The notes beneath the pieces were generated by a model. The model searched no databases and was not told the DNA's origin. It worked only from the letters and a program-made list of their open reading frames with translations. Below, in pieces: positions 22,040 to 23,427 of a stretch of DNA of 64,000 bases. How positions within the stretch are numbered: position 1 is the first letter of the stretch; each line of letters opens with the position of its first letter. Position numbers and translations under genes: made by a program. The DNA comes from Sinomonas notoginsengisoli. Lineage in GTDB: Bacteria; Actinomycetota; Actinomycetes; Actinomycetales; Micrococcaceae. The stretch is taken from assembly GCF_021554725.1 (NCBI RefSeq), contig NZ_JAIZDP010000008.1:1-64000 (forward strand). The letters run 5' to 3'.

Positions 22040-23167
22040 CTAGTTGTTGGAGTGACCGTTGTGAATGCGGCGATGACGAACGGCGCCGGCGAGGTGCCCG
22101 AGGACCTGCGCGGTGATGCCCCACTCCATGCACTTGTCCGTGACGCTCTGCCCGTAGGTGAGCTGCGAACGGCCGGCGGCGAGCTCGGCGACATCGAGTG
22201 CCTGCGCTCCACCCACGAGGAAGCTCTCGAGCATGACGCCGGCCACAGCCTCCGCGGCCTCACCGCCTGCGGCCAGCTGCGCGCCGATCTCAAGTGCCAC
22301 CTCGGCCTGGCGATGATGGTCCTTGCCGCTGTTGGCGTGGCTCGCGTCCACGATCACCCGCGGGTTGAGCCCCTTGCCCGCCATCTTTGCCGAGGCAGCC
22401 TGCACGTGCGCAGCGGAGTAGTTCGGGCCGTCGGAGCCCCCACGCAGGATGAGGTGCGTGTCCGGGTTGCCGGCAGTGGCCACGAGAGCCGCCCGCCCGG
22501 CGTCGTCAATCCCCAGGAAGGCCTGGGAAGCGGCCGCGGCGCCGCACGCATCGATCGCGATCTGGAGCCCGCCGTCCGTGCCGTTCTTGAACCCGACCGG
22601 CACGGAGAGGCCGGAGACGAGTTGGCGGTGGATCTGGCTCTCGGTGGTGCGGGCGCCGATGGCCCCCCACACGATGGCGTCCGCGGTGTACTGGGGGCTG
22701 ATCGGCTCGAGGAACTCCGTGGCCGTGGGGAGGCCGAGCTCGAGGACGTCCAGGAGGAAGCGACGCGCCGCCCGCAGGCCTCCGGCGATGTCGTGGCTGC
22801 CGTCGAGGTCCGGGTCGTTGATGAGGCCCTTCCAGCCCACCGTGGTGCGCGGCTTCTCGAAGTATGTCCTCATCACCACGAGCACGTCCTGGCGGACCTC
22901 GCGGGCGACTGCGGCGAGCCTGGACGCGTACTCGAGCCCCGCCTCGGGATCGTGGATCGAGCAGGGGCCGACGATCACGAGCAGCCGGTCGTCGACGCCG
23001 TCCATGATGGCACGCACCTCGTCGCGGCCGCGGGCGACCGCACGCGCGGCGGCCTCGTTCAACGGCAGTTCCTCGAGGAGGTCACCCGGGGTGGGAAGCG
23101 GGGTGAACTCGGCGACGCGGAGGTTGCTCGTCGATGTGTCAGTGGCGGCAGTACTGCTCGGGTTCAT
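22040..23167 (-). CDS. 3-deoxy-7-phosphoheptulonate (DAHP) synthase, class I
   Basis: A 375-residue AroG/F/H-type enzyme that condenses phosphoenolpyruvate with erythrose 4-phosphate, the first step of aromatic amino acid synthesis. Recognised blocks are LLVIVGPCSIHDPEAGLEYA, MRTYFEKPRTTVGWKGLINDP, the KNGTDGG loop, HLILRGG and IVDASHANSGKDH for metal and substrate binding. The start at 23167 has AAGGACAG upstream; the longer frame is rejected because it runs through the leader. The 170 bases upstream hold a leader peptide rich in Phe, Trp and Tyr and a terminator, so attenuation by aromatic amino acid supply is likely. Confidence 0.92.
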   Translation of the reverse strand: MNPSSTAATDTSTSNLRVAEFTPLPTPGDLLEELPLNEAAARAVARGRDEVRAIMDGVDDRLLVIVGPCSIHDPEAGLEYASRLAAVAREVRQDVLVVMRTYFEKPRTTVGWKGLINDPDLDGSHDIAGGLRAARRFLLDVLELGLPTATEFLEPISPQYTADAIVWGAIGARTTESQIHRQLVSGLSVPVGFKNGTDGGLQIAIDACGAAAASQAFLGIDDAGRAALVATAGNPDTHLILRGGSDGPNYSAAHVQAASAKMAGKGLNPRVIVDASHANSGKDHHRQAEVALEIGAQLAAGGEAAEAVAGVMLESFLVGGAQALDVAELAAGRSQLTYGQSVTDKCMEWGITAQVLGHLAGAVRHRRIHNGHSNN

Positions 23168-23226
23168 GGTCTGTCCTTGTCCTGACAGGCCCCGAGTGGG
23201 CCAGAGCCTGCCGTTGATATGGCAAA

Positions 23227-23252
23227 GGGCAAGGACCATGAGGTCCCTGCCC
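23227..23252 (-). terminator. intrinsic terminator in the DAHP synthase leader
   Basis: In the minus-strand RNA, GGGCAGGGACC pairs with GGUCCUUGCCC over 11 bp (one G-U pair) around the loop UCAU and is followed by UUUGCC. It stands 60 bases before the gene start and 32 bases after the leader peptide stop. This is the position of an attenuator. Confidence 0.75.
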
Positions 23253-23254
23253 TG

Positions 23255-23307
23255 TTGGCTCTGGAGTCGGTACGCGACGAAATCTACGCTTGGCCCTCCA
23301 GAGCCAA
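23255..23307 (-). promoter_or_regulatory. 12-bp leader stem overlapping the leader peptide codons
   Basis: TTGGCTCTGGAG on the minus strand (23307-23296) lies within leader codons 11-14. It is perfectly complementary to CTCCAGAGCCAA (23266-23255), which abuts the terminator. A ribosome stalled on the aromatic codons would cover the first arm and free the second. GGCTCTGG occurs a third time at 23208-23201. Confidence 0.65.
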
Positions 23308-23337
23308 CGCAAAATACGCATACCAACGCTTGAACAT
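23284..23337 (-). CDS. aromatic-rich leader peptide of DAHP synthase
   Basis: A 17-codon ORF encodes MFKRWYAYFALALEGQA. Five of its first nine residues are Phe, Trp, Tyr, Tyr and Phe, the products of the pathway that the next gene starts. TACCGT (23349-23344 on the minus strand) lies six bases before the ATG, so the transcript probably begins at the leader start codon. It is followed by a long stem and an intrinsic terminator, the layout of ribosome-mediated attenuation. Translation and stalling are inferred. Confidence 0.75.
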   Translation of the reverse strand: MFKRWYAYFALALEGQA

Positions 23338-23427
23338 GGACCTACGGTAAGAGCCGCGCGGTCCAAGATGCAAACAGCCGCCCGTATCGTGGACATCGAT
23401 CACGGGCGGCGGTTCGCTAGAAGGAGG

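Follow-up and report, generated by a model that had tools for sequence, protein, structure and literature searches.

The class-I DAHP synthase gene of Sinomonas notoginsengisoli is preceded by a conserved 17-codon leader ORF carrying Trp, Tyr and Phe codons and by a set of covarying RNA helices; in folding models, the choice between two of these helices (B:B' and B':C) depends on the position of the ribosome. Aromatic synthesis is entered through DAHP synthase (3-deoxy-7-phosphoheptulonate synthase). That an aromatic leader peptide is coupled to RNA switching ahead of this gene is strongly supported by conservation across genera, by covariation and by the published aroR leader of Corynebacterium glutamicum. 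The RNA element is very likely a real starvation sensor, kin of the device shown working in Corynebacterium, since the same device is present in much of the actinobacteria. Sensing of all three aromatic amino acids is plausible, judging from the codon content. Ribosome-mediated attenuation of the aroR type, with segment B' switching between partners B and C, is considered the probable mechanism. Throughout, ‘the window’ denotes the whole stretch of DNA analysed, positions 1 to 64,000 of contig NZ_JAIZDP010000008.1 (64,000 nucleotides); its features are listed in Table 1.

Table 1. Features of the leader region and of the gene behind it, in window coordinates
Feature	Position	Strand	Basis
Candidate -35 element TTGCAT, 18-nt spacer to TACCGT	23368..23373	minus	sequence; TTTGC-like motif in the corresponding position in most genomes of the genus
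Candidate -10 element TACCGT, 6 nt before the leader ATG	23344..23349	minus	TANNNT spacing in relatives
Leader ORF MFKRWYAYFALALEGQA*	23284..23337	minus	same or near-identical peptide in the genus; across actinomycete families
Sensor codons Trp5-Tyr6-Ala7-Tyr8-Phe9 (TGG TAT GCG TAT TTT)	23311..23325	minus	TAT/TTT near-invariant in relatives
Arm B (GTTGGCTCTGGAG), within leader codons Ala10-Glu14	23296..23308	minus	pairs with B'; tree-null covariation p=0.003; shuffles 0/500
Arm B' (CTCCAGAGCCAAC), partner of B or alternatively C	23254..23266	minus	pairing and covariation
Hairpin H2, 12 bp including one G-U, terminator position, tail UUUGCC	23226..23253	minus	covarying stem
Small hairpin H2b (TGCC/GGCA), in the B':C state	23209..23224	minus	covariation p=0.010
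Segment C (GGCTCTGG), second copy of the B core, partner of B' or D	23201..23208	minus	B':C p=0.010 versus window shuffles; tree-null p=0.003
Segment D (GGGGCCTGTC), partner of C (hairpin H3) or of the ribosome-binding region	23184..23193	minus	C:D covariation p=0.017
Shine-Dalgarno AAGGA and segment E (GACAG)	23171..23178	minus	sequence; D pairing in the window putative
Class-I DAHP synthase gene	22040..23167	minus	NCBIfam TIGR00034, 469 bits; Pfam PF00793

The leader ORF, its promoter and its codons

The leader ORF is real. A preliminary description of this DNA had proposed a 17-codon ORF with Phe, Trp, Tyr, Tyr and Phe codons, and both the ORF and these codons are found in the sequence; the gene behind it does encode, as had been stated, the first enzyme of the aromatic pathway. 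The element is also present where it had been placed, but the end given for it, 23227, is too early, as it extends to the start codon of the gene at 23165. Within its own genome the sensor sequence occurs as a single copy. A class-II DAHP synthase is also encoded in this genome (G000:C1:12341-13633, L299), with no aromatic leader apparent upstream by eye.

The TACCGT box lies six bases ahead of the leader ATG, as had been described. Among non-redundant leaders, 133 of 140 have a TANNNT box 6–7 nt ahead of the start codon (where several in-frame starts were available the boxed one was chosen), compared with 0.6% at random upstream positions used as a control. Because of this spacing the leader ORF is probably leaderless; transcription would begin at the leader ATG or right next to it, and ribosomes would read the ORF without a Shine-Dalgarno site. 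The possibility of a leaderless start, raised earlier, thus gains support from the promoter spacing in relatives. A consensus scan at the leader found no promoter and so lends the candidate -35 element no support. Adjoining this candidate -35 is a GC-rich inverted repeat (GCCGCCCGT..ACGGGCGGC, window 23376-23412), which follows the upstream glutamate dehydrogenase gene and is probably the terminator of that gene.

Tyr and Phe in the leaders are encoded almost entirely by TAT and TTT, codons which are rare in the window's genome. Across the leaders TAT occurs 203 times versus nine for TAC, and TTT 138 times versus 12 for TTC; in four genes of the window the counts are one TAT versus 33 TAC and four TTT versus 40 TTC. 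These counts show clearly that rare codons have been retained in GC-rich genomes, with shared ancestry inflating any formal significance.

Conservation and distribution

DAHP synthase was searched for at four levels around the window's genome (genus, family, order and class) and also within the family of its mycobacterial relatives; leaders were selected on the presence of at least three aromatic residues, all three kinds not being required, and clade labels ending in ‘-like’ are inferred assignments. The leader is present in all 15 same-genus genomes, nearly unchanged even at synonymous positions, while the sequence farther upstream has diverged. It was found at each of 52 further same-family loci examined and detected at about 180 loci in many genera across actinomycete families. 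Comparison of upstream regions among relatives, which had been suggested as a check, shows that the aromatic codons are kept across genera: Trp, Tyr and Phe occur together in 133 of 141 non-redundant leaders, six lacking Trp and two lacking Phe. The wording of the core varies, with RWFTY and RWYWRF..APGGA in other families, AYWRFIEAPGGA in mycobacteria, RAYFWF in Nocardia-like genomes, QRFYF or WRFYF in Corynebacterium-like genomes, and RRYPYF as a variant without Trp.

No leader was found in the two-copy genomes of a Bifidobacteriaceae-like family (f4), at most loci with a class-I enzyme in a Streptosporangiaceae-like family (f35), or at the few proteobacterial loci inspected. When a covariance model of B:B' and H2 was run against 346 genomes of the class, matches fell chiefly at DAHP synthase loci. 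In f35 genomes and one related MAG (L325, L327, L331-L334) the same element, its U run strong, lies not before a class-I DAHP synthase but before a DAHP-synthase-like/chorismate mutase fusion (DAHP_synth_1 and chorismate mutase domains), another gene of the aromatic pathway that shares this leader design. No Rfam family matched at gathering score, the sub-threshold matches being to unrelated families only, and no NCBIfam or Pfam leader-peptide family matched up to E=10.

Helices and their covariation

The leader region folds at -96.8 kcal/mol, compared with -65.3 ± 4.7 for shuffled sequences (z -6.7). A pair of arms, one within the leader codons and the other adjoining a hairpin, had been noted in the preliminary description and is present; its pairing is perfect and 13 bp rather than 12 bp long (B:B'). 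The hairpin described there as an 11-bp terminator likewise exists (H2), but with a stem of 12 bp including one G-U pair.

Covariation was tested on a 78-sequence alignment centred on Micrococcaceae, with evolution simulated on the tree in 300 simulations. No single pair was significant against this tree null, the best having an E of about 1, and whole helices were tested after this per-pair version; the support is therefore at the level of the helix. Canonical covariation gave p=0.003 for B:B', B':C and H2, p=0.010 for H2b and p=0.017 for C:D, while the paired fraction of B':C gave p=0.047. An independent pair counter applied to 30 sequences found 94.4% and 92.8% of cells paired for the two states, values reached by none of 500 shuffles, and the score collapsed when partners were slid by one column. 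In this 30-sequence count B':C showed one-sided changes only; the compensatory support for this helix comes from the larger alignment together with the comparison of clades. That comparison pairs CCAGAGCC with GGCTCTGG in the window, TTCAGAGCC with GGCTCTGAA in part of the genus and CTTCAGAGCC with GGTTCTGAAG elsewhere for B' and C respectively. Segment C lies 16–18 nt beyond H2 in most Micrococcaceae and tracks B'.

Scored against shuffles in single sequences (p<0.05), B:B' stood out in all 75 sequences and B':C in 63%; the figures of 36% for C:D and about 29% for D:E are rough, the duplex scan having mis-segmented C in some Micrococcaceae. In the window itself C:D reached p=0.02. D:E was not significant there (p=0.29) and gave p=0.01-0.035 in the same-genus loci L086, L089, L090 and L093.

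Three further pairings were considered and set aside. Pairing of the Trp/Tyr codons with a segment ahead of B' is visible by eye within the genus but decays in relatives. A near-perfect 10-bp match between CGTTGGTATG (23328-23319, the Arg-Trp-Tyr codons) and CATATCAACG (23221-23212, just past H2) is confined to the window and close relatives. A local hairpin within arm B (H0), which catches the eye in mycobacteria, showed no covariation support in the Micrococcaceae-centred alignment (p=0.77).

Ribosome position and the choice of helix

On the family alignment, unconstrained RNAalifold returned B:B' with H2 and C:D; with B masked it returned B':C enclosing H2 and H2b. Modelling of the ribosome as a footprint on the window RNA gave 0.83-1.00 for B:B' with the ribosome at Trp5 or Tyr6 and 0.63-0.99 for B':C with the ribosome at Phe9 or the stop codon. 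These results were stable when three footprint sizes and three RNA lengths were tried. At Tyr8 either fold was obtained, depending on footprint size, and the ribosome-free fold of the window varied with the length folded. With the ribosome at the stop codon, B':C formed in the window's genus and B:B' in most other Micrococcaceae. The footprint folds are equilibrium models, by which the direction of regulation is not fixed. Because the modelled stalls at Trp5/Tyr6 and at Phe9 fold oppositely, a single simple logic for the three amino acids does not follow from them. Predicted access to the Shine-Dalgarno site showed no consistent change between states across sequences; uniform Shine-Dalgarno sequestration as the outcome is unsupported, the opening energies being inconsistent.

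In the mechanism considered probable, a shortage of charged aromatic tRNA would stall the ribosome on the TGG, TAT, TAT and TTT codons, immediately 5' of arm B. Whether B is then free, masked or unwound would determine which partner B' takes: B, or C, the second copy of the B core beyond H2. Formation of B:B' would leave C free to pair with D; formation of B':C would release D, which could then cover the ribosome-binding site of the DAHP synthase gene. Stalling is presumed to turn the gene on. In this clade the main readout would be translation of DAHP synthase, and H2 would be a weakened form of the terminator in those relatives that keep a U run.

Readout and competing explanations

The preliminary description had H2 as a terminator with a U run and assumed an antiterminator pairing, not fully resolved by eye. 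In the window the U run is not convincing, and the folding models show no antiterminator in competition with H2. The main competing explanation is classical transcription attenuation, in which H2 is an intrinsic terminator governed by the leader ribosome and the downstream pairings are secondary. Transcription attenuation is the control ascribed to C. glutamicum aroF in PMC11802643, the H2 stem covaries, and U-rich tails follow H2 in Corynebacterium (TTTTGTC), some mycobacterial relatives (TTTTTGTT) and f35 genomes (TTTTTGTTTC). In Micrococcaceae, however, these tails are poor: the window has only UUU and then GCC (UUUGCCAU), most relatives have UUCGCC, and a terminator scan was negative. For RNA ending just past H2, each of the 75 sequences formed H2 with a probability of at least 0.79, whichever of the four ribosome states was modelled, so no antiterminator upstream competes with it; the alternative partner of B' is C, which lies downstream of H2. 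Moreover, the Nocardia-like relatives apparently lack H2 yet keep B' and C. A choice between terminator and antiterminator is thus not supported by the models in the window's clade, and classical attenuation as the whole explanation is rather unlikely. H2 may instead have begun as a terminator and weakened in this clade, as we infer from its tails. In the Nocardia-like loci concerned (L271, L274, L278, L288) pairing of B' with C makes a simple local hairpin (GAGCCGG..CCGGCTC), and another stem is able to form across the ribosome-binding site.

Two other explanations are far less probable. The nascent peptide (RWYAYF or AYWRF) might respond to a free aromatic amino acid by arresting the ribosome, like TnaC with tryptophan, instead of tRNA charging being read by its codons. 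The near-invariance of the core within families, including the Arg ahead of the aromatics, would fit such arrest, but between families the order and identity of the aromatics change (RWYAYF, AYWRF, RWFTY, QRFYF) while composition is kept, and the conservation of nucleotides, synonymous sites included, points to codons and RNA; arrest is considered very unlikely. The least probable explanation is that the RNA structure is conserved for some other reason, such as mRNA stability or protein binding, with the aromatic codons incidental. Strong nucleotide conservation would fit this, but the aromatic content survives sequence divergence and stands ahead of aromatic-pathway genes, and a Phe response is reported for C. 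glutamicum in PMC11802643.

Attenuation of the aroR type with B' switching between B and C therefore remains the preferred mechanism, and translational control is its favoured, still proposed, readout in the window's clade. Segment D is able to pair with the ribosome-binding region in several clades; this pairing is not significant in the window and is absent by eye in one Micrococcaceae genus. A broader formulation is tentative and on balance doubtful: a class-wide riboregulator in which a leaderless peptide would read Trp, Tyr and Phe tRNA charging through exclusive helices (B:B', B':C, C:D and D:Shine-Dalgarno), its output moving between clades from termination to control of translation initiation.

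If true, a single leader integrating three end products would explain the tuning of the entry-point enzyme, and an attenuator known from one Corynebacterium species would extend to much of the actinobacteria, mycobacteria included. A weakening terminator with retained downstream helices would provide a natural series for the shift of attenuation from transcription to translation. Where control has to be relieved in aromatic-producing strains, the leader would also be a ready target.

Comparison with known systems

The closest known system is the AroR leader of C. glutamicum, which has Phe-Tyr-Phe before aroF (PMC11802643, PMC4046766; after Neshat et al. 2014). According to PMC11802643, aroF transcription is enhanced under Phe limitation, Tyr availability being without effect; PMC7356990 calls aroR a translational regulatory leader peptide. 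The readout of aroR itself is thus described in two ways in the literature, as transcription attenuation and as a translational leader. As in the window, a short aromatic leader ORF lies directly before the DAHP synthase gene, with a Phe codon adjoining the B arm, and in the Corynebacterium-like locus L259 (QRFYF) the same search finds B/B' arms and then H2. They differ in that aroR contains no Trp and that a U run follows H2 of L259. In the window the leader carries Trp, Tyr, Tyr and Phe, the tail of H2 is degenerate, and B is clearly duplicated as segment C, which pairs with B'.

The classical trp attenuators of Corynebacterium and Streptomyces (PMC1262725) resemble the window in that a leader peptide containing regulatory codons is combined with alternative RNA helices ahead of a biosynthetic gene, but their antiterminator overlaps a poly-U terminator, and none was found against H2 in the window. 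PMC1262725, a survey of actinobacterial attenuators from 2005, saw no conserved structures ahead of genes for the synthesis of other amino acids, and reported no attenuator for the DAHP synthase gene. Mycobacterial cysteine genes, as outlined in PMC13236596, offer a parallel to the proposed readout: in an actinobacterium, a uORF with a stalled ribosome alters pairing around the Shine-Dalgarno site. There the uORF pairs directly with the Shine-Dalgarno site, whereas in the window a chain of four helices intervenes and the effect on that site is only proposed.

In the literature searched, which left out most subscription journals, no description was found of a class-wide tri-aromatic family, the B':C switch or the leaderless start. 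The window's element is a tri-aromatic relative of aroR with a degenerate terminator, and of a kind already known; what is new is that most of the class keeps the tri-aromatic codon set and that the switch has a downstream partner, C.
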